A stretch of 44,023 nucleotides of DNA from an uncultured Clostridia bacterium (GTDB lineage Bacteria > Bacillota > Clostridia > Christensenellales > UBA1242), in the NCBI GenBank assembly GCA_947366545.1, contig CANBAL010000009.1, forward strand, positions 1 through 44,023, given 5' to 3'. The notes beneath the pieces were generated by a model, which saw only the letters and a program-made list of their open reading frames with translations, did no database searches and was not told where the DNA came from. The stretch's first letter is position 1. The number at the start of each line of letters is the position of its first letter. Of the stretch, positions 15,616-44,023 are shown one piece after another. Position numbers and translations under genes: made by a program.

Positions 15616-15642
15616 ATATAAAGAATGAAAGGGGGAAAGATT

Positions 15643-17448
15643 ATGAAAATCAATTTCTATAATTCTATGGCTAACGCTCTACTTAAACAGAGTGGAAATG
15701 AATACGGAGATATCAAACATATCGCTATTGATAATTTAAAAACTAGTAATGTGGACACTGCTCTTTTAGATGATAGTTGTATTTCATCAAGATTAATCTT
15801 AGGTGAAATGACTATTGCTGACCTTCCAAGAGAAATAGAGGAAAAATCTTCTACTGGACAAAACGATGCAAATTATTCTAACGAGAAGGTAGAAAAAATC
15901 AACGCTGCTATCAAGGCGTTAAAAAAGGGGACTGCTGAGAACCTTGCAGCAATGCTAGAAAATCATCCTGAATTTATCTCTAATGATGTATTTAGGACTG
16001 GATTTATAAATATATTAAAAGATAATTCAAAAAACAATTTAATTCCTACTATCTTTGCCACCATTCTTAGGTCTAAATTAGATGATTCTATTGACTTAGA
16101 TACTCGAAAAGAATTTGAATATGAAATGGAGCCAATTATTGAAGCGTTAATTGTTAACAAAAAGGTAGAAACAAAAACTTATTTATATGACGCCGTAAAA
16201 GGATCAACCCCTGTTATAGACGAAGTTGTTGAAATTTTATCAAATAACGGTGTGCCATCTGAAACTATAAATGCTTTAATACACGATCTTGTAACCACCT
16301 ATCACATGGCACAAACAATCACAGGCAAAACTTCTGACTGGTCAGTGTCATTAAATTCCGATAGTGCAAACTCTATGTGGTATGTTGCCGAAGATGGCAA
16401 TAATCAAACACTCTTGCCAAGCAATGTCAAATTCCTTAAAAACATTGAACACATCACTGACGCATTGGTGCTAGGTGCAAAAGATCCTGACCAAGGCGAT
16501 AATGGTATCTTCACGGCTTTCAAACTTCTTCAAAGCAAAATCTCTGGCAAAGAGATAAATGAAAGAGGAGAAATAGACACCCGCTTTGCAAATCCAGACA
16601 AACTTTTGCAACATTTATCAACAATGGTATTCCTATGTGACGGAATGTGCAATGAAATGGGAGTGGAAACTGAACAACTTACAAACTTGCAGTTTGCCAT
16701 AATGAATCCATTGACTGATATTATTGAGTCTTTACTAACACAAAAAGGCTCAAACCATATAACTGAAATTGTAAACAAGGCATATGAAGACGCAAAGACA
16801 ATTTTAAAAGAAGAGCAAAGCATTGATTATGACAGAAAATACGCAACTGAGGTAACTAATACAAGTGCGCGAACAACATCAGCCAAGGAGACAAAAGTCG
16901 CTGCAACTGTAGTAGAGGTAAAGGCACCTGCAAAGAAAGATGCGGCAACAAAAAAGAAAGAAGCTGTTATAAAATGTAACAAAGCATATAGAAAAGCAAC
17001 TAAGAAATTAGTTGTAGAAACTCTTAGTTTATCAGATATATACAATAGAATTAACGATATTGACCTAGGTGATAATGCAAAGCTTGTAAGAGCAATAAAA
17101 AGTATCATTAATTACTATTTAATCAAAGCAAGGGGTCTTGAAAGAAATATAGAAAGCGGTGAAAAAGAAACACTTTCTAAAAAGTTAAATGTTCGCAAAA
17201 TTGCAAAAGAATTGCAAGAACAACTTAACTGGCTTAATGAAGAAGAGTTTAAAAGCGCAATTAATACAGCAAAACAAATCTTAACCGACATAGCAGGCCT
17301 TGATAATCAAGATTTATCAAAAGAAACCGTTGGTACTCTTGCAGAGTTATCAGCAAAAGAAATTTTAACTAATAACATTAGCAAACTTCCAAAGAAGGCG
17401 GCCGCTACAACTACAGATGCAAAAATCGTAGACACAGAAACTGAATAA
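15643..17448 (+). CDS. hypothetical protein, about 600 aa, with Lys/Ala-rich linker
   Basis: Long ORF with AAAGGGGG RBS and strong promoter; no recognised domain; linker VEVKAPAKKDAATKKKEAV. Confidence 0.85.
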   Translation: MKINFYNSMANALLKQSGNEYGDIKHIAIDNLKTSNVDTALLDDSCISSRLILGEMTIADLPREIEEKSSTGQNDANYSNEKVEKINAAIKALKKGTAENLAAMLENHPEFISNDVFRTGFINILKDNSKNNLIPTIFATILRSKLDDSIDLDTRKEFEYEMEPIIEALIVNKKVETKTYLYDAVKGSTPVIDEVVEILSNNGVPSETINALIHDLVTTYHMAQTITGKTSDWSVSLNSDSANSMWYVAEDGNNQTLLPSNVKFLKNIEHITDALVLGAKDPDQGDNGIFTAFKLLQSKISGKEINERGEIDTRFANPDKLLQHLSTMVFLCDGMCNEMGVETEQLTNLQFAIMNPLTDIIESLLTQKGSNHITEIVNKAYEDAKTILKEEQSIDYDRKYATEVTNTSARTTSAKETKVAATVVEVKAPAKKDAATKKKEAVIKCNKAYRKATKKLVVETLSLSDIYNRINDIDLGDNAKLVRAIKSIINYYLIKARGLERNIESGEKETLSKKLNVRKIAKELQEQLNWLNEEEFKSAINTAKQILTDIAGLDNQDLSKETVGTLAELSAKEILTNNISKLPKKAAATTTDAKIVDTETE

Positions 17449-24659: not shown

Positions 24660-27137
24660 TTACTTCTTTGCAATTCCTTTCTCCATGAGCTTAATAAGAT
24701 CATCAAGTTTCTTGTTGGTGTCTTCTGTTTTCTTAAGCTGCTCTTGACCAAGTTTATCACCAGTCTTAGGGGCTGGATCCTTACTTCCTGCATTGCCATA
24801 ACCAGTAAATACACCTGCAAGTGAATCCACAAATCTTCCTCTTGCAATCCTGCTCTGCTCACGACGGGTGTCAAGTTCTTTCTGCGTTGTTGCGGCTTCA
24901 CGAGCCTCACCATAAACTCCGTCAATTTTGCCCTTATCATCAAGTTTGTAGTTTGTTGCTCTTCCAAAGGTTCCAATAAGTCCGCTAAGATTCAATCCGA
25001 CATCCTTCATGCCATCTTTAAGTCCCTTCATAATCGCACCGCCAAGTGCTCTTGCGTCGTTTGCAACCATTTGTTTTTCCATATCAGGCACATACTTACC
25101 ATCTTTATCCATATAGTTTGAAGTACGGATGGCCTCCATATTTGCTTTAGCTTGATCTCTAATTGCTTCTTGTCCATCTCTTGCTTGAATAATTTTCCAT
25201 TGACGATCTGTATAACCTTTTTGATCAGAAATCTTCTTCTGTGCTCTTGCATCAGCTATATCAGCAAACGAATCATCCTTAAGCATTTCTTCCTGCATTT
25301 GTTGTCTTATGAATGCATCTCTGTCTGCACCAGTCAAACCTTTTGCATCAGCCATTCTGTCTGCTTTTCGTACTTTGGCAGCATTGGCAGAATCTCCCAT
25401 ATAATTATTTACATGATCCTGTAATTTTAGTTCTGCAATAGCTTGATTATTAAAAGCAGCATCCGCTTTATCTCCATACAATAGATCATCCGCCAAGTCT
25501 ATCTTATGCTGAGCCTTACCCATCTTATTTTGCTCTTGATTAGCTTTATTCTTAGCTCTTGCCATTCGAAGCCCTTTCTCAGCCGCACCAAAAGCCATAC
25601 CCATCCCGGGAATAAATTTTCCTACTTTCATTGCTACATTTGCTGCGGCCAACGCTCCACCAATAGCTTTGCCGCCGACTTCTTTAATACCAGCCTTGGC
25701 GTCATCGCCTGTCTTCACTGCATCGGCTCCACCAATAAGTCCTGATAGGAACCCTATAAAAGCTTTTACCATACTAAGTCCCGCAATAACAATCAACAAG
25801 TTCATAATGTAGTCCATTATAGTAATGTTGAAGAATTGTATATTACTTAAGTAAGGTAGCAACAAGAAGAAAAGATTAATCCCCACTACAGCACCAAAAG
25901 CCATAAGTACTTGTTGCATAAATTCTCCACGCCACTTTTTAAATGCACCAAATTCGTCAAGTGGAGCAAGCCCAAGCAGTGCTGGATAAATTAAGAATAG
26001 TGCTGCCGACTTAATGATACGGGTAATAAGCCCTAAAATAATACTTACCATCAAGCCAAACAAAACTATAACCGCCGCACCAGCTATTATAAAATTGAAA
26101 GACCATAAATCATAATAATACCAAACAAATCCGACATTATACTTCGTAAATGAATATACGAAACTACCCGCAACAACAAATGATGGCGTGGTCGCTACTT
26201 CAATAGCGAGTTGCATAGGATTGTAAATAACCTCTAATGCTGTCCACTTACTTGAATCCAACCTCAAATTGTTTGCAAAGGCATAATCTATTTGATATGC
26301 AATCCATTCCCGCTTGTCTTGTCCGGCAGGAATATTATTTTTACCAAAAATATCAAAGTCATAATAGTAACCAAGTTCAGGACCAAAATATGACACAACG
26401 CCATCCAGTATTCCCGCGGTATAATCTGTTGTTCCTCGGTCCGGATTATATCTACCCGTTCTCATTCGGTTAGCGTCGCGTGCAGCAGTCTTGAAAATCA
26501 ACCCCGAAAATGTTTCTCGATTTGTTCCCGCCCCCGCACTAAAAATATCGAAGTTGCCATAAACCTCATTACCTTTTGTATCAGTGGATGAGGTAAATAC
26601 ATTATTGTACTGGGCGCCGTAGATTCCCTCCAATGTCTCTGCGGATGTGCTTGCGGATGTGATATTATCCAAAGTTCTAAGTAAAAATGTAGAAAGCCAA
26701 AAACCTGCTATAACAACCACTGGTACGATGGCGAAGGTAAGCACAGATTTGATAGCAGTGTAGATATATGTAACAGGATTTGTTTTTCCAGAATCTTCGT
26801 TGTAGTGTGATTTGATGATTGCAAACATGGTTGTAAGAACAAGCACGATTGCACCGAAAATTACAAGTGACCAAAAAGTAGTAGTAAGGGCGGAGTATGC
26901 TGGAGCGTTTTCGCCAATACCCAAAATTCCCATGATAAATTCAAGTACAGGGTCGGTATTTTTAATGGCTTCACCGTCAACATAATACACATCAAGGCCA
27001 GCAAGTTTTCTAAATACTAATTGAAGGGCATCCAAGACGCTGGCAATCGCCGTGTAAATAAAATACATACACTTAGGAATATAACTTAAAAAGCCAGTAA
27101 TATAATCCCACATTGCCCAACTTAATTGAGATATCAC
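24660..27137 (-). CDS. VirB6/TrbL-like T4SS (ICE-type) integral membrane protein
   Basis: Multiple TM segments (WSLVIFGAIVLVLTTMFAII, LTFAIVPVVVIAGFWLSTFLL, LIYPALLGLAPLDEFGAFKKWR...) then a long hydrophilic Ala/Lys-rich tail; GTG start after AGGAGG. Confidence 0.72.
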   Translation of the reverse strand: MISQLSWAMWDYITGFLSYIPKCMYFIYTAIASVLDALQLVFRKLAGLDVYYVDGEAIKNTDPVLEFIMGILGIGENAPAYSALTTTFWSLVIFGAIVLVLTTMFAIIKSHYNEDSGKTNPVTYIYTAIKSVLTFAIVPVVVIAGFWLSTFLLRTLDNITSASTSAETLEGIYGAQYNNVFTSSTDTKGNEVYGNFDIFSAGAGTNRETFSGLIFKTAARDANRMRTGRYNPDRGTTDYTAGILDGVVSYFGPELGYYYDFDIFGKNNIPAGQDKREWIAYQIDYAFANNLRLDSSKWTALEVIYNPMQLAIEVATTPSFVVAGSFVYSFTKYNVGFVWYYYDLWSFNFIIAGAAVIVLFGLMVSIILGLITRIIKSAALFLIYPALLGLAPLDEFGAFKKWRGEFMQQVLMAFGAVVGINLFFLLLPYLSNIQFFNITIMDYIMNLLIVIAGLSMVKAFIGFLSGLIGGADAVKTGDDAKAGIKEVGGKAIGGALAAANVAMKVGKFIPGMGMAFGAAEKGLRMARAKNKANQEQNKMGKAQHKIDLADDLLYGDKADAAFNNQAIAELKLQDHVNNYMGDSANAAKVRKADRMADAKGLTGADRDAFIRQQMQEEMLKDDSFADIADARAQKKISDQKGYTDRQWKIIQARDGQEAIRDQAKANMEAIRTSNYMDKDGKYVPDMEKQMVANDARALGGAIMKGLKDGMKDVGLNLSGLIGTFGRATNYKLDDKGKIDGVYGEAREAATTQKELDTRREQSRIARGRFVDSLAGVFTGYGNAGSKDPAPKTGDKLGQEQLKKTEDTNKKLDDLIKLMEKGIAKK

Positions 27138-35901: not shown

Positions 35902-35988
35902 GCTTGTCTCCCTTTAGTTTAAATATATAAACAAGGCTGTGCAAATATTCATGCTAGTTACTTTATGCGAAATACGGCAATAAAAAAC

Positions 35989-36007
35989 AGAGCTTTTCGC
36001 TCTGTAT
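35989..36007 (-). terminator. Terminator after the 36009 gene
   Basis: ACAGAGC-ttttc-GCTCTGT. Confidence 0.8.
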
Positions 36008-36008
36008 T

Positions 36009-38195
36009 TTACTTGTTAAGGTTAGAAATTTCTTTGATTAAATCTTCTATTCGATTATTTATCTTGGCAAGTTCCTCTGGTGAAGACTGTTCTCTCACCT
36101 CTTGTGCCTGCGCTTGAAGATTCTCAATTTCCTTCATAATCTTGTCTGTTTCTTTGGCAATCGCTTCGTTTTGGGAACTATCCATAGCCTCGTCAATTTC
36201 TGAACTAATAAGCATTTTCATTTTGCTAAGTTTGTTTTCTTCTTCGCTTATCATTTCGTTAATTTTTTCAAGACTTGCAAGTCCATTTTCTTGAGTGCTT
36301 TTTACTGCCTTTTCTTTAGGTGGATTTTTTCTTGGCCTGCCAACAGGTTTCTTTTCTTCCTTTTTTGTTTCTTCTGCTTTTCTTGGTCTGCCGCGTTTTT
36401 TAGCCTCTTTCACAGGTTCTTCTTTAACCTCTTTCTTAGGTCTGCCACGCTTTGACTTTGGCTTATCCTCTCCTTGCTTCTCAGTAGGAACTTGAACCTG
36501 TTTCTCAACTGTTTCTTGGGTTTCAACCTCTGGCTGTGGTTCCTCTTCAGGCTCTTCCATAGGCTCTTCTACTTTTTCTTCTTTCTCATCACCTACATAG
36601 GAGCCGAATGCTACAACATCGTCAAGGCGCTCTTCCTCTTCAATTTGTGCTTGCTCTTTTGGCTCATCAATAAGCGTACCATTCATATCATAGACTTTGC
36701 CGTCTACATCATGGAAAAGTCCATTTGGATCGTGATATGAGCCGTCCTTGTAAACAAAGTTGCCGTTTTCATCATACACGCCGTCACTGGTATTTTCTTC
36801 AATTTCGTCGCCAAGCCTTGCCCTTAAAGTGTTGTTCTCGTCAACAAGTCTCTTTATTTGGGTTTGCACTACGATAAGTTCTTGCTCATTGTTGTCGCGT
36901 TGCTTAATAAGGTCACTCTTTTCCTGTGCCACCTTTCTCTCAGCCTGAGACTGTGCACTTCTCATCACCTTCTCATAGAAAGATTGATATTCCGCAACCA
37001 TGGCCTTTTGCACAGCATCTTTGGAGTCGTCAAGTTGAATCCTTAGGTTATCAACCTCTTGATTTAACTCTTCAATAGAAAGAGCAAATCTTGTTTCTTC
37101 TTGGTCATATTCGCTTTGTAAAGATTCCTGCTTTGAAATCTCTTGCTCTTGTTGTTTTCTAAGGAATCCTACCTCCATTCTGTTTGTGGTGGCTTCCTGC
37201 TGTTGAATAAGTTTATTGATGTTCTCTTTTGATGCTTGAATCTTCCTTTGCAAATCTTTTTGTACATTCTCATGGTTTCTACGAAGTGCCTCTTTTTCAG
37301 CCTCCACATGGGAAATCTTTGCAAGAGTGTTTGTCTTTTTGTTGATAAACGCCTCTGTTTCCTTCATCGCTCTTTCAAGCACAAGGGAGCCGTCAACCCC
37401 TGCATCTGCAAAGTTGTATTCAACATATTCCACATCGCTCTTCTTTGCGTTTTCAAATTCCTCTTTGGCTTTCCTTGCCCTGCTTTCGTAGTATTCACGA
37501 AGTTGAGGGTTACCCTTGCTGATTTCTTTTGAAGAAAAGAGTAAGTCGAAATCAATATAAGAAGGAAGGTCAACGCAAGCATTTAAAATAAATCTTGCAA
37601 AAATGTGGTAGTGGCTGTAAATGTCGTCAAGGTTTGTCGTTTTTCTTCCCTTAAGGAACATAGACGCTACAATGCTAATAATTAAAACAAATACTGGAAG
37701 TGCAATCGCGGAAATTAAGTTTAATCCTGTCAAGGTGGTTACACTACCCATTCCAAAAAGGAGAACAATGGACGCCCATATAAGAGAAACTAAGTTCAAA
37801 TTTTTAATGTTATTTGCCCAACTGCTTGTTTTAAGAGGTTTTTCCACAAGGTTTTCAAGTGATAGATAATGCGTGGCTTCTTTCTCTCTAAAAAGTATGT
37901 ATTGTTGCCAGTAGTATACAAGACGCTTTGGTCCTTTCTTAATAAGGTCATTAAATTCTTTAATATTATTCTGGTCAATTTTTTTGTTTATAAAAAGCCA
38001 AGAGTTAAGTTTATCCAAACTCCTCCTTAATCTCATCTCGTATGAAAAGGCGGTCTTTAAAACAAATATAAATACAAGAAATAGTTCTACCACCAAAGCG
38101 ATAGCAAGCATCCCTTCAAAATGAATGGCTTGTGCAACCTGTTGAAAAAAGGTTTTGAACGAGCTTTCTATTTCGCATAACATGGAAAAATTCAT
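36009..38195 (-). CDS. membrane-anchored coiled-coil protein with three AT-hook motifs
   Basis: N-terminal TMs; long coiled coil; KRGRPKK, KRGRPRK, GRPRK hooks; AGGAGG RBS. Confidence 0.85.
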   Translation of the reverse strand: MNFSMLCEIESSFKTFFQQVAQAIHFEGMLAIALVVELFLVFIFVLKTAFSYEMRLRRSLDKLNSWLFINKKIDQNNIKEFNDLIKKGPKRLVYYWQQYILFREKEATHYLSLENLVEKPLKTSSWANNIKNLNLVSLIWASIVLLFGMGSVTTLTGLNLISAIALPVFVLIISIVASMFLKGRKTTNLDDIYSHYHIFARFILNACVDLPSYIDFDLLFSSKEISKGNPQLREYYESRARKAKEEFENAKKSDVEYVEYNFADAGVDGSLVLERAMKETEAFINKKTNTLAKISHVEAEKEALRRNHENVQKDLQRKIQASKENINKLIQQQEATTNRMEVGFLRKQQEQEISKQESLQSEYDQEETRFALSIEELNQEVDNLRIQLDDSKDAVQKAMVAEYQSFYEKVMRSAQSQAERKVAQEKSDLIKQRDNNEQELIVVQTQIKRLVDENNTLRARLGDEIEENTSDGVYDENGNFVYKDGSYHDPNGLFHDVDGKVYDMNGTLIDEPKEQAQIEEEERLDDVVAFGSYVGDEKEEKVEEPMEEPEEEPQPEVETQETVEKQVQVPTEKQGEDKPKSKRGRPKKEVKEEPVKEAKKRGRPRKAEETKKEEKKPVGRPRKNPPKEKAVKSTQENGLASLEKINEMISEEENKLSKMKMLISSEIDEAMDSSQNEAIAKETDKIMKEIENLQAQAQEVREQSSPEELAKINNRIEDLIKEISNLNK

Positions 38196-38351: not shown

Positions 38352-41300
38352 TTAATCAAAATATTCAATTAATTCTGCATTTTTTAATGATAAAATGTAT
38401 TTTTTATTCAATTTTATTCCAAATGCTTTTTCAATGGCAAGAGAATAGATGTCTAATTGTTTACTATATTTTTCCAGTATTTTTTCATTTGATTTATTTT
38501 GAGTGTATTTGTAGTCTACTAAATAATTTTGCGCGCCAATGGCAAACATGTCAACAACGCCTTGTACCAATAGTTCATCTTCACAATTTGTATCAATAAT
38601 TTCTTTCGCTTGCGCCTTCATAACAAACTGTTTTTCTTTGTAAACCTTACTTTCGCCTATAAGATTTTTAATTATTAAAATGTTTTTTAGCAGCAGTTCT
38701 CTATTTATTAAATCAAGATAGCCCGCAGTAAACTCTTCCGATTTCTCCATTAACTGCTTGTTCAAATCGTCAATGTTTTCAACCTTTTCAAAGTCAATAA
38801 GCTTTAACGCTTCATGATAAGCATTTCCCGTATTCAAAAAGTCTTCGTTTGATTCAAGGTCAAACTTTTCTATTTTTTGATTTAAATTGTTAAGTCCTGT
38901 CACAGAGTTTTTAAAATTAAGTGTACAATTTTCATAGCCATTATACTGAAAATTTAAATACTCTCTTACTTTTTCAAGTTGACCTTCCGAAAGCTGTTTT
39001 GTTTGAAGGTTTATCTTTTCTATAGAAGGCTCTGACACTTTATTGACAAGATTTAATTCCCAATCGCCAATTACTACCCGTTCTTCATTCTTTAGTTTCT
39101 CAAGCACACTTTCCCCAAAAGCATAAAATATCAGTTGCAAATAGTTCTTTGCTTTTAAAGGTGAACCATTGTAATAAAGATTGTTTATTTTATCTTGTCC
39201 TACTATATATAAATGATTTTTAGCACGAGTGAACGCAACATAAAAAATCATTATTTCGTCAATCATTTCCTTTTCACGATTTTGGCTCTTTATCATTTCA
39301 AGTACTGGAGTTGTGCATTTTATATTTGTAAGTTCGTTATATGCATATGTGCCAAGCCCTAATTTTTCATTTATTTCATAGTTTTTTCTTGAAGGCTTTT
39401 CAAGTTTTTGCCCAGCACCTGCAAGAATCACAATCGGGTATTCCAGTCCTTTGCTTGCATGAATGGTCATAAGCTTTATCGCATCACTTACTCCCTCGTT
39501 TATACCTTTCTTCTGTCCGCCAGTTTCTTCAAAATAAGAAATTGCTTCACTTACGCCCAAATCTTTTGCTTTTAATTCCTGCATAAAATTCATCACAAGC
39601 ATATACTTTGTCTTGTCTTGTTTAAGATAGGCAAAATAATTTTTATTAACAAACAATTCGTTTAACGCACGATAAAGCCCTATCGTTTGTACTTTTAGTT
39701 TTAATTCATCCAGCATTTGATAAAAATCTTTAATCTTATCATTAGGCTGACTTTTTAGCGCTTCATAGAAATGTTTTTCCTCTGGTGCGAGCAATCTTTG
39801 CGATGCCAATTCGTCCAAAGTAAACCCACCTAAAGGTGAAGCTAACACCGAGATTAGAGAGTTGTCATCATTTTTATTAATAAGCAATTTTAATAAATTT
39901 AAAAGCATTTGCACATCGCCATCTTGGACTGCAAGTTGTTTACTGTCTACTAAAACAGGGTATCCCCTCTCCACAAGTTTTACCGCTAGTGTGTCCATGA
40001 GTGAGTTTCTGCTTCTAAATAATACTACTATGTCTCCTAGTTCTACCTTTCTATAGTCTCCTAATTTGGTGTCATAGATTTCTTTCATTAACAGTTCGTC
40101 TATCCGTGCCACTATGACGCTGGCTTCAAGACTGTCTTTATCATTTGACAAAAGCTCATCGTCTTTAACACTATACACGCCTTTAATTAGCGTCTCTTTT
40201 TCTACTTCTGGTTTTTCCACAACATCAACTCTTACTGATGGTAACTGCATTTTTCCAAAAGGCACTTCCCCTTTCAGCATTGAGGTTTGCTTATAATCAA
40301 GCCCCACCACTTCTTGCGTCATAACCCTTTCAAAAATCTTATTAATAAAGGATAGGAGCCTGTCATCGCTTCTGAAATTTCCTCTAAGAAAAGCAACCCC
40401 ACCACTAGCAGAAAAATCCTCTATATCTTGCTGCATTATCTCCATGGTGGCGTTTCTAAAGCCATAGATACCTTGTTTCGGATCACCAACAGCAACAAAG
40501 TGACTGTTTTTTGTGATAGGCTTGATAATAGCCTCTTGCACCCTATTTGTATCTTGGTACTCGTCAACAAAAACATAATCATATTTTTCTTGTATGCTTG
40601 AAAGCACTTCTTCATTTTCCATAAGCGAAAGTGCCAAGTTTTCTATGTCCACAAAATCCACAATATCAAGGTTGCGCTTTAATTTTTCATACTCTTCTTT
40701 GTAAATTTTGTATAAATCAAGCAACGCTTTCGATAAACTGCCATTTTCCTGCTTTTCTAATAATATTTTATCGTCAAAGTTATATTTCCCTATTTGTTCT
40801 AAGAAATTTTTTATTTCCTGCCTTAATGATTTCACTAGATTAACGGACTCTTCGTCGCGATTTTCTCCTCTTATAATAGGGATTTGTTCTAAATTTATCA
40901 TTTTAAGGTTTTTTACATTAAAAATAAAATTTTCCGAATAGTTTTGGTCAAGCAAATGATAAATATAGTCGCAATATCGCTGATATTTTGGCTCATCAAC
41001 CTTCTCTTTTACTTCTTGCGTAAGTGTTTTCAACCTTTCTATCTCTTCAAGTAAATCCTCGTTCGCCTCTTTTAAAGCAAGTTTAAATATAGAAGGTTGA
41101 TTTGATGAAAAATAATTTATTTTATCATCTGGTTTGTATAAGGCCGAGAAAAAACTTTCGATACCAAGAATCGTATCAAAAATAATGTTTTTATTTTTTC
41201 TGTAACTATAATAGATTTCGTTAAGCTCACTTAAATTGTCTTTTTCAAAAGCTGTTATCGCCCTCTCAAAAGCCTTGCTCTTCAATTCACTTCCGTCTTC

Positions 41301-41660
41301 TAGGACAGAAAAATTTTCATCCAGTTCAAGTTTGTCAATATTGCGTCTAATCAGTTTTTCACAAAAAGCATCTATAGTGGAAATATCTGCTATTGACAAA
41401 TCGTCAAGTTGCTCCAGTAAATACTTGTCATAATTTTGTTTTAACAAGGCTTTACTTAGCCTTTCCCTCATTTCTCCCGCAGCAGCACGAGTAAAGGTCA
41501 GTACCAAAATTCTTCTAATCGGAATATGTCTCTCTACAACAAGTTTGGTGATATATTCTATTAGAACAAAGGTCTTTCCACTACCAGCAGAGGCGCTAAC
41601 AATAAGATTTTTGCTATCATTATTTATAGCACTATTTTGCTCTAAAGTTAATTTACTCAT
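38352..41660 (-). CDS. addA: AddA helicase-nuclease subunit
   Basis: NLIVSASAGSGKTFVLIEY, DEYQDTNRVQE, GDPKQGIYGFR, VALTRAK-like VAFTRAKNHLY, C-terminal YLVDYKYT nuclease motif. Confidence 0.94.
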   Translation of the reverse strand: MSKLTLEQNSAINNDSKNLIVSASAGSGKTFVLIEYITKLVVERHIPIRRILVLTFTRAAAGEMRERLSKALLKQNYDKYLLEQLDDLSIADISTIDAFCEKLIRRNIDKLELDENFSVLEDGSELKSKAFERAITAFEKDNLSELNEIYYSYRKNKNIIFDTILGIESFFSALYKPDDKINYFSSNQPSIFKLALKEANEDLLEEIERLKTLTQEVKEKVDEPKYQRYCDYIYHLLDQNYSENFIFNVKNLKMINLEQIPIIRGENRDEESVNLVKSLRQEIKNFLEQIGKYNFDDKILLEKQENGSLSKALLDLYKIYKEEYEKLKRNLDIVDFVDIENLALSLMENEEVLSSIQEKYDYVFVDEYQDTNRVQEAIIKPITKNSHFVAVGDPKQGIYGFRNATMEIMQQDIEDFSASGGVAFLRGNFRSDDRLLSFINKIFERVMTQEVVGLDYKQTSMLKGEVPFGKMQLPSVRVDVVEKPEVEKETLIKGVYSVKDDELLSNDKDSLEASVIVARIDELLMKEIYDTKLGDYRKVELGDIVVLFRSRNSLMDTLAVKLVERGYPVLVDSKQLAVQDGDVQMLLNLLKLLINKNDDNSLISVLASPLGGFTLDELASQRLLAPEEKHFYEALKSQPNDKIKDFYQMLDELKLKVQTIGLYRALNELFVNKNYFAYLKQDKTKYMLVMNFMQELKAKDLGVSEAISYFEETGGQKKGINEGVSDAIKLMTIHASKGLEYPIVILAGAGQKLEKPSRKNYEINEKLGLGTYAYNELTNIKCTTPVLEMIKSQNREKEMIDEIMIFYVAFTRAKNHLYIVGQDKINNLYYNGSPLKAKNYLQLIFYAFGESVLEKLKNEERVVIGDWELNLVNKVSEPSIEKINLQTKQLSEGQLEKVREYLNFQYNGYENCTLNFKNSVTGLNNLNQKIEKFDLESNEDFLNTGNAYHEALKLIDFEKVENIDDLNKQLMEKSEEFTAGYLDLINRELLLKNILIIKNLIGESKVYKEKQFVMKAQAKEIIDTNCEDELLVQGVVDMFAIGAQNYLVDYKYTQNKSNEKILEKYSKQLDIYSLAIEKAFGIKLNKKYILSLKNAELIEYFD

Positions 41661-44023
41661 CTCCGCCCTCCTTTGTCGCCTTGTCGATGTCCTCCTGAGA
41701 AATCCTATCTTTTTTTCTTACTCCTTTCTTCTTATCAATAAGGCAGATGCTGAAATATGGACACCTCTCACAAGAAAATTGTGACGGCTTAGCCTCGATA
41801 TATCCACTTTCAATTTCTTCCAAAGCCTTAGCGGAAACCTTTTTTGCATAGCCTTCAAATGTGGAAAGCGGAAACTTCGCGAGTGCAGAGCCTTTATACC
41901 CACTTGTCGCCTTTGGGCTTACCGCAATTATATCGCTTGCACCTGATTGCAACTTGTAGTCAAAAAGCGGCAACACCTGCTCGTCATTTTCCACAAGCCC
42001 TTTTAAAAGCACGGCTTGTTCATCCTCTTTGTCAAAATCATATCTGCTGTCAAAATAAAATGTGCCCACACATTTTTTATTAATAAGTTTTCCACTAGCG
42101 CTTGCGTAAAGGAAAAGTTGAAGTTTGTCGCCATAATATAAATCTTTCAGTATTGGTGCAACATGGCCAGTCTTATAGTCCATAACTCTAAAATAATTAT
42201 CTACTGCGTCAATTCTGTCAATTTTTCCTAAAAACTCGATTGTTTTACCTTCCCCATAGTTCAAATAAAAACCGCCGAGGTTCTTTTCCACAAACACTGG
42301 TTTAAATTGTGAAAACCTTTGCTCAAAACATATCCTTGCAAGCAAGAATTTTGCAAGCCTTGTTATGTAATTTAACAAACTCTTACTGTCTATCGTGGCC
42401 TCAAGTTTTTCTTCGAGGTTTTCCTCTCTTATTACCAAAGAGAGATTTTCATTAATATAATCTTCTATTTCTTTCGGCATTAGGCTGCCCAAACGCATTT
42501 TGTTATCTAGCACAAATTTTTCTGCCAATTTATGACAGATGTTACCAATATCTCTTTGGTCAAACTCATATTCTTCTTGTTCAACCGCCCGTAAGCCGTA
42601 TCTTACAAAATGTTTAAATGGACAATCAAAAAAACATTCAAGTTGTGTCACTTTGGTATAATCTTTTGGGAAAAATAACTTATGTGCGTCAACTGAGATT
42701 TCCTTTTTGGAAAGGTCTACAACGCTCTCCTCTATTTCCGCCGCGTTTAATATAGGCTTTTTAAAAGCATCCAAGCCTTGTCCTTCTAAAATTAGTTTTT
42801 TCCCGCCTATCGAAAATAAAAGTCTATCTATATTTCCTTCTTCTACATTTTCAATTTGGTAAAATGCACCTGCGGAAACAATTCCTTTTCCGTATATCTT
42901 GGAAATATTGTCAATATAAGCAGGCACCTCCACCTTTCCACCTTCGCTGTTTGCAAGGAAACTTATTGTGAGACTGCGACTAAAATCACATAAAAGATTA
43001 AATAATTTAAATCTGTTTCGTCTGTTAATCATCCTAATACTAGGCTCTATCTTTTTTAAAACGCTGAGTGCATCTATATCATCATCGCTGAGAAGTCCAT
43101 TATCGCCAGAAAGATATGGCAGATGCTCGCCACCCATTACGATAAGATTTTTTGTCCCATAGAAACAACTGTTTCCAGCATCACCAACAAAGACAGCGTC
43201 AACATAGGTTGGCACAGTGGATACTTCTTTAAATGTCAAAAGTAATTTTAAATATTTTAGATATTCGCCTTTTGAACATGCTTCATCTTTTTTAAACTCA
43301 GTAAGTTTGCTTATCGTCTCCAAAAGAATTTCTTTTACTTGTACGTTTATCTGATACTCTTTTACTAAGCCCTCACGCTCTAATCTGCCTAAAAGATTTT
43401 GATATTCACTGTCGAATTTGTCAATTATGGCTAAAATGATGTCCCCTATTTGAGAAAAAGTGCTTGCCTTTTCAAGTCCATCAAGCGTCTCATCAAACCT
43501 AGGACAAATGCCCGCCATATACTTTTTGTACCTATTTTTTCCATTTATGTTAAGTTTGTCTATTTGAAAACAAACTTCATCCGAGTTTTCCACTCCAAAA
43601 ATTAAGTTTGAGGCAAGTGATTTCAAGGCTTCTTTTGAGTAATCCTTTGCTATCACCTCTAATATTTGAAGTATAAATTGTGCAAGCAGCGAACTGTCTG
43701 CCGTTTGTGACTGATCAATATAATATGGAATATCAAGCGCTTTTAAGTATCTTTCCAAATGTGGTGCATAGTTTTCTAAATCCCCACATGCGATAGCAAA
43801 ATCACTGTACCTTTCGCCTTTAAAAGCCTTGTACTTTATCATCTTGCATATAGTTTCACACTCTTCTTGAATGGTGGATGCTGCAAGAAGCGAGACAAAG
43901 TCTCCCTGTTCGCTTTCAATTTCACCGATTGAATATAGTTTGTTTATAATCCCGCTTGACTTTCTTTCACAAATTTTAGGTGAAACAACTTCAATGACCG
44001 CTCCAAGCTCTTTAGATAAAGCC
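41653..44023 (-). CDS. addB: AddB helicase-nuclease subunit, 5' end beyond the window
   Basis: CFFDCPFKHFVRYGL and CERCPYFSIC Fe-S cysteines, VMDYKTGH nuclease motif; the frame stays open from 43842 to the window edge. Confidence 0.93.
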   Translation of the reverse strand, partial: ALSKELGAVIEVVSPKICERKSSGIINKLYSIGEIESEQGDFVSLLAASTIQEECETICKMIKYKAFKGERYSDFAIACGDLENYAPHLERYLKALDIPYYIDQSQTADSSLLAQFILQILEVIAKDYSKEALKSLASNLIFGVENSDEVCFQIDKLNINGKNRYKKYMAGICPRFDETLDGLEKASTFSQIGDIILAIIDKFDSEYQNLLGRLEREGLVKEYQINVQVKEILLETISKLTEFKKDEACSKGEYLKYLKLLLTFKEVSTVPTYVDAVFVGDAGNSCFYGTKNLIVMGGEHLPYLSGDNGLLSDDDIDALSVLKKIEPSIRMINRRNRFKLFNLLCDFSRSLTISFLANSEGGKVEVPAYIDNISKIYGKGIVSAGAFYQIENVEEGNIDRLLFSIGGKKLILEGQGLDAFKKPILNAAEIEESVVDLSKKEISVDAHKLFFPKDYTKVTQLECFFDCPFKHFVRYGLRAVEQEEYEFDQRDIGNICHKLAEKFVLDNKMRLGSLMPKEIEDYINENLSLVIREENLEEKLEATIDSKSLLNYITRLAKFLLARICFEQRFSQFKPVFVEKNLGGFYLNYGEGKTIEFLGKIDRIDAVDNYFRVMDYKTGHVAPILKDLYYGDKLQLFLYASASGKLINKKCVGTFYFDSRYDFDKEDEQAVLLKGLVENDEQVLPLFDYKLQSGASDIIAVSPKATSGYKGSALAKFPLSTFEGYAKKVSAKALEEIESGYIEAKPSQFSCERCPYFSICLIDKKKGVRKKDRISQEDIDKATKEGGDE

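Follow-up and report, generated by a model that had tools for sequence, protein, structure and literature searches.

The 44,023-nucleotide stretch of Clostridia DNA that we analyzed (the window) encodes, directly downstream of addB and addA, a membrane protein with three AT-hooks on a tail predicted to lie in the cytoplasm. The best explanation of this protein, which we hold with moderate confidence, is that it is a cytoplasm-facing membrane tether for DNA, one that probably holds the chromosome to the membrane of the cell and may do so at breaks. A first-pass annotation of the window had proposed chromosome anchoring; given hooks that are both cytoplasmic and conserved, a membrane-DNA tether is indeed the best reading, but general anchoring is only one option within it, and that annotation had overlooked the ZorA/MotA-type fold of the membrane domain, the order-wide addAB gene order and the histone H1-like tails that replace the hooks in some lineages. 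The ORF, topology, fold similarity, hook conservation and gene order described here are computational results, from which we infer oligomerization, DNA binding, tethering and contact with AddAB.

The gene is a real ORF on the minus strand (36009..38195), the strand to which the parts listed below, the hairpin and addAB also belong, and encodes 728 amino acids; it is supported by orthologues and a family-wide profile, has an ATG start preceded by AGGAGG, and is followed directly 3' of the stop by a terminator-like hairpin with a 7-bp stem and a T-run (35987..36005). Hydropathy and flanking charge in 32 family members bear out the N-terminal transmembrane segments noticed at first pass, placing TM1 at aa 29-47 (38055..38111), TM2 at aa 134-152 (37740..37796) and TM3, with a near-invariant Pro167, at aa 162-181 (37653..37712), all within a membrane domain of aa 1-260 (37416..38195). 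The AlphaFold2 (AF2) model then shows a helical rod at aa 269-461 (36813..37391; pLDDT mostly >85) made of two long helices, aa 269-335 and 339-461; the long helices expected from the sequence are thus present, but they span about 190 aa together and not the 250 aa of coiled coil first estimated. Next come a glycine/aromatic repeat, YDxNGxxVYxDGSYHD, at aa 472-510 (36666..36782; 73% mean orthologue identity), modeled as a beta-hairpin repeat of short strands, and, as previously described, an acidic region ahead of the hooks, here a disordered linker at aa 513-580 (36456..36659) with low pLDDT and 24% identity in orthologues. All three hooks fall inside the interval first assigned to them, about 36318-36461: KRGRPKK at aa 582-588 (hook 1, 36432..36452), KRGRPRK at aa 600-606 (hook 2, 36378..36398) and GRPRK at aa 619-623 (hook 3, 36327..36341). 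The protein ends in a helical coil at aa 638-728 (36012..36284; 54% orthologue identity), modeled as helices of aa 638-703 and 706-727, which corresponds to the second coiled coil anticipated after the hooks.

Many family members carry the glycine/aromatic repeat (YDENGNYVYxDGSYYDxxGxYHD) in one to three or more copies ahead of the tail; it is also seen in the C terminus of L062 and in L055 and L081, and has no family match. Kinship of these repeats with the EAGR box of the Mycoplasma cytoskeleton was considered and dropped, as 37 members gave no Pfam match (E 0.1) and their PDB matches were only chance-like. A phage_LysB match (E 0.014) and PDB matches to TraB and KIF21A were likewise taken as chance coiled-coil matches.

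The orientation of the protein in the membrane follows from the charges around its transmembrane segments. In the 32 family members, the residues ahead of TM1 have a net negative charge, a strongly basic loop joins TM1 to TM2, and TM2 and TM3 are separated by a short, slightly acidic loop; together these place the N terminus outside and the tail with its hooks inside. The ZorA/TolQ-like fold likewise has its C terminus inside. Hooks located outside the cell had been named as the result that would count against anchoring; the positive-inside rule and the fold both predict the opposite, with the tail in the cytoplasm.

We examined the membrane domain by structure prediction and comparison with the PDB. 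The AF2 model of aa 1-260 (pLDDT 83, pTM 0.69) has ZorA as its best Foldseek match (probability 1.00, E 7e-5, TM-score ~0.5), as does the full-length model (probability 1.00, E 3e-4); TolQ and ExbB rank after ZorA, and the top 45 PDB matches of the domain model are all ZorA, TolQ or ExbB. TM-scores of ~0.5 with high rmsd denote the same fold class, not close similarity. The superfamily pattern of TM1, cytoplasmic helices, TM2-TM3 and a cytoplasmic C terminus is present, and on the modeled structure the membrane domain is predicted to share the MotA/TolQ/ExbB/ZorA superfamily fold. Sequence profiles point the same way: an order-wide domain profile (A4) places ZorA first among PDB sequences with a colinear match (E 2.9e-4), but unrelated helical membrane proteins reach 1.7e-3, so sequence homology to ZorA is likely and not proven. 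The same profile matches 506-aa ZorA-like proteins of the class, encoded beside an OmpA-family partner gene, at E 1e-13. Against a ZorA-like profile built from two sequences, the order profile scored weakly; adding L173 and L174 raised the probability to 97.8, a value that is not independent because both sequences were found with the order profile.

ZorA-like coiled-coil membrane proteins adjoin an OmpA-type gene in other Clostridia (L173:1491-3862, L174:2744-5088, L170:7348-9826 and L171:176-2696). Those of L173 and L174 have aroE-like genes and genes resembling those for type IV pili as neighbors, and those of L170 and L171 are near ribosomal protein genes, with no obvious defense island; these pairs are possibly housekeeping ZorAB-like motors.

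The genomic neighborhood of the gene is shared more widely than the hooks. Its conserved upstream neighbors are addA (38352..41660; TIGR02785, E 2e-135) and addB (41653..44023, running off the window; TIGR02773, E 6e-60), both scoring below the curated cut-offs and both backed by synteny. In 33 of 37 family loci the gene follows immediately downstream of addB-addA, and a homologue holds this position in 18 of the 19 loci that belong to other families of the order; the neighbor on the far side is variable. Most homologues from these other families (L123-L142) are short, at 284-584 aa, and one has 840 aa; their linkers are acidic, hooks are absent, a C-terminal helix is frequent, and almost all of the genes still follow addA. 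The gap before the gene in the window, 156 bp and AT-rich, may hold its own promoter, so that cotranscription with addAB is uncertain. Elsewhere in the window, we noted a TraG/TraD-type conjugation coupling ATPase (PF02534) at 176-2197, possibly a remnant or part of a conjugative element integrated in this 0.95-Mb genome, and two large ORFs, 15625-17445 (607 aa) and 24663-27137 (825 aa), with no Pfam match at 1e-5.

The fixed addAB link suggests that the tether serves AddAB, and it invites an explanation in which DNA binding is secondary: the ZorA-fold anchor and rod would act as a Zorya-like recruiter that brings AddAB to the membrane for incoming or broken ends, the hooks only holding the substrate. 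Precedent exists in Zorya phage defense, in which ZorAB, a MotA-fold anchor, recruits nuclease effectors to the membrane (PMC11890865). The ZorA-like fold and rod fit this explanation, as does the order-wide linkage, which includes hookless homologues, and the joint absence of AddA and the homologue from two genomes (G118, of the same genus and rated complete, and G039). Three other genomes, in contrast, have AddA with no homologue next door (G006, G014 and G046), no ZorB/OmpA partner was found in the source genome, and PADLOC returned no match for the protein; we regard the recruiter as a possibility, held tentatively.

We give the same low level of credence to a general nucleoid-membrane anchor that acts in segregation or positioning like RocS or Rv3852, with addAB adjacency reduced to inherited gene order. 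Both of those proteins join a membrane anchor with DNA binding, multiple hooks favor broad binding of AT-rich DNA, and four sampled family genes lie away from addA (L066, L070, L079 and L089). This explanation does not readily account for an addA adjacency that persists across many families while the other neighbor varies, and the source genome already has ParB and SMC, for which reason we rejected the idea that the protein stands in for ParABS/SMC. The fixed AddAB link points to DNA ends or repair.

The hooks lie well beyond chance expectation. Shuffling the 216-aa tail 200,000 times never produced three GRP[RK] motifs, and even one arose in only 0.4% of cases. AT_hook (PF02178) is the only Pfam family reported for the protein, with hook 2 passing the gathering score; the ORF is the sole match of this profile in the whole source genome, and none of 14 control genomes has a match above the cut-off. 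Codon usage differs in part among the three hooks. Lack of conservation in orthologues, which had also been named as evidence against anchoring, is not what a homologue search revealed: 21 of 22 close orthologues carry one to six hooks, and hooks occur in many other genera. Within these 22 orthologues, identity is 91-100% in the GRP cores of hooks 1 and 2 and 24% in the linker around them, and conservation is weaker at hook 3 (~27-64%). HMGA-type AT-hook proteins are soluble, unlike this membrane protein, and CarD is a known bacterial case of HMGA-like DNA binding.

Within the taxonomic family, one of small-genome gut Clostridia, a family profile detects the gene in 150 of 197 genomes, representing 29 of 42 genera. 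Several genomes scored as negative have a diverged version immediately behind addA; of 11 such versions, 7, short divergent members among them, keep a single KRGRGRPKK-type hook. Hooks were found in 16 of 38 sampled family proteins, reaching 11 per protein in other genera, and GRP hooks were absent from the other 22; the Pfam model, a GRP core flanked by Lys/Arg, was matched by 16 of 37 members. Mapped onto a tree of N-domains, which are only 26-50% identical between genera, hook presence requires 4 changes (15.7 for shuffled labels) and is phylogenetically stable. Hookless members mostly have Lys/Ser/Thr/Pro-rich tails that recall histone H1, and 17 of the 22 have a stretch of 60 aa with a net charge of +9 or more; in some genera, lysine-rich, H1-like tails replace the hooks. 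AT content was rejected as the reason for the distribution (GC 0.316 at hook loci and 0.309 at non-hook loci). Three proteins, L062, L071 and L080, have neither hooks nor a clearly basic tail and are natural negative controls for DNA binding. Tail charge in homologues outside the family ranges from -22 to +11 and is mostly below 9, so the tethering of DNA may have been added late to a function that is older.

Such tails could instead bind another polyanion, such as ribosomal RNA, polyphosphate, acidic proteins or anionic lipid, GRP being one flavor of basic linker. The many Lys/Ser/Thr/Pro-rich tails that lack GRP and the matching AT content of hook and non-hook loci are consistent with this idea, but it appears improbable given that the exact GRP core is sharply conserved within a drifting linker, that the KRGRGRPKK-type hook is kept even in short divergent members, and that amino acid composition does not account for the hooks.

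We also considered whether the membrane domain works as a motor. In ZorA and MotA, a Ser/Thr ring surrounds the partner's aspartate (PMC11890865). Pfam profile searches gave no PF01618 match for the AT-hook protein or family members, TM2 and TM3 of family members have no conserved Ser/Thr polar ring or acid (only Pro167 is conserved), and searches of the source genome with MotB_plug (PF13677) and OmpA (PF00691) returned no match to these two profiles. No ZorB-like OmpA protein was found in that genome, so the set of ZorA, ZorB and effectors that makes up a Zorya system was not recovered. Lacking PF01618, a polar ring and a detectable MotB/OmpA partner, the domain probably acts as a scaffold and not as an ion motor. 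On these same three grounds it is highly improbable that it is a ZorA/MotA-type stator powered by the proton gradient to move a DNA-bound tail, a role for which the superfamily fold speaks.

The tether that we favor would work as follows. The three-TM ZorA/TolQ/ExbB-fold domain would anchor the protein in the cytoplasmic membrane, probably as an oligomer and, by analogy, possibly a pentamer, from which helical rods would extend into the cytoplasm, each with a flexible linker that displays several AT-hooks. The hooks would grip the minor groove of AT-rich DNA, and with several chains bearing several hooks each, individually weak hooks could give a firm but mobile attachment between nucleoid and membrane. 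Broken or incoming DNA ends and AddAB may thereby be held near the membrane. The addAB link is wider than the hooks, so the basic partnership is probably with AddAB, and the grip on DNA would have been added or strengthened in the family.

Comparison with known systems clarifies which parts of this arrangement are new. ZorA (PDB 8qyd, PMC11890865) shares the three-TM core, the cytoplasmic helices between TM1 and TM2, the long C-terminal cytoplasmic rod and a genetic link to a DNA-degrading machine. The AT-hook protein differs in having hooks on its tail and AddAB in place of ZorC/D/E, and it lacks a detected ZorB/OmpA partner, the conserved polar ring, and PF01618 and PADLOC matches. RocS of Streptococcus pneumoniae (PMC11500499) likewise combines a membrane anchor, coiled coil and DNA-binding domain in one protein, but has its DNA-binding domain at the N terminus and an amphipathic helix at the C terminus, where ours has three TMs and AT-hooks. 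Rv3852 of Mycobacterium tuberculosis (PMC8233713) is a nucleoid-associated protein held in the membrane by a single C-terminal TM helix, and the parts of the literature consulted describe no ZorA-type domain or addAB link for it. The combination of membrane anchor and cytoplasmic DNA-binding element found in these two proteins is, for the AT-hook protein, a prediction. HMGA-type proteins, including Myxococcus CarD (PMC4374960), have multiple KRGRPRK/KRGRGRPKK hooks on a charged disordered linker; here the hooks are on a membrane protein. The plastid proteins MFP1 (which has a coiled coil) and PEND are membrane-bound DNA-binding proteins proposed to anchor nucleoids (reviewed in PMC4154389); they are eukaryotic with unrelated domains, and the analogy is one of function. 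Our literature search, thin on subscription journals, revealed no publication that describes a membrane protein linked to AddAB or a bacterial AT-hook protein anchored in the membrane. Membrane-nucleoid proteins are thus already known from RocS and Rv3852, and what appears to be new is the combination of fold, hooks and addAB gene cluster.

If the tether is real, it would be a rare bacterial case in which a membrane protein bears HMGA-type AT-hooks and so links chromosome and membrane directly, and it would show the ZorA/MotA fold used as a scaffold and not a motor. Because AT-hooks and H1-like tails replace each other in nature, the family already offers an experiment on the requirements of a DNA tether, and the order-wide addAB linkage provides a specific, testable hypothesis about the cellular site of end processing. 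More speculatively, and in our judgment rather unlikely, the protein could be an order-wide and hitherto undescribed third component of the AddAB cluster, a static motor-fold platform lacking an ion-motor partner that brings AddAB and DNA to the membrane, to which one small-genome Clostridia family added AT-hooks or H1-like tails. Such a platform would be a counterpart of Zorya in repair or first-line defense.
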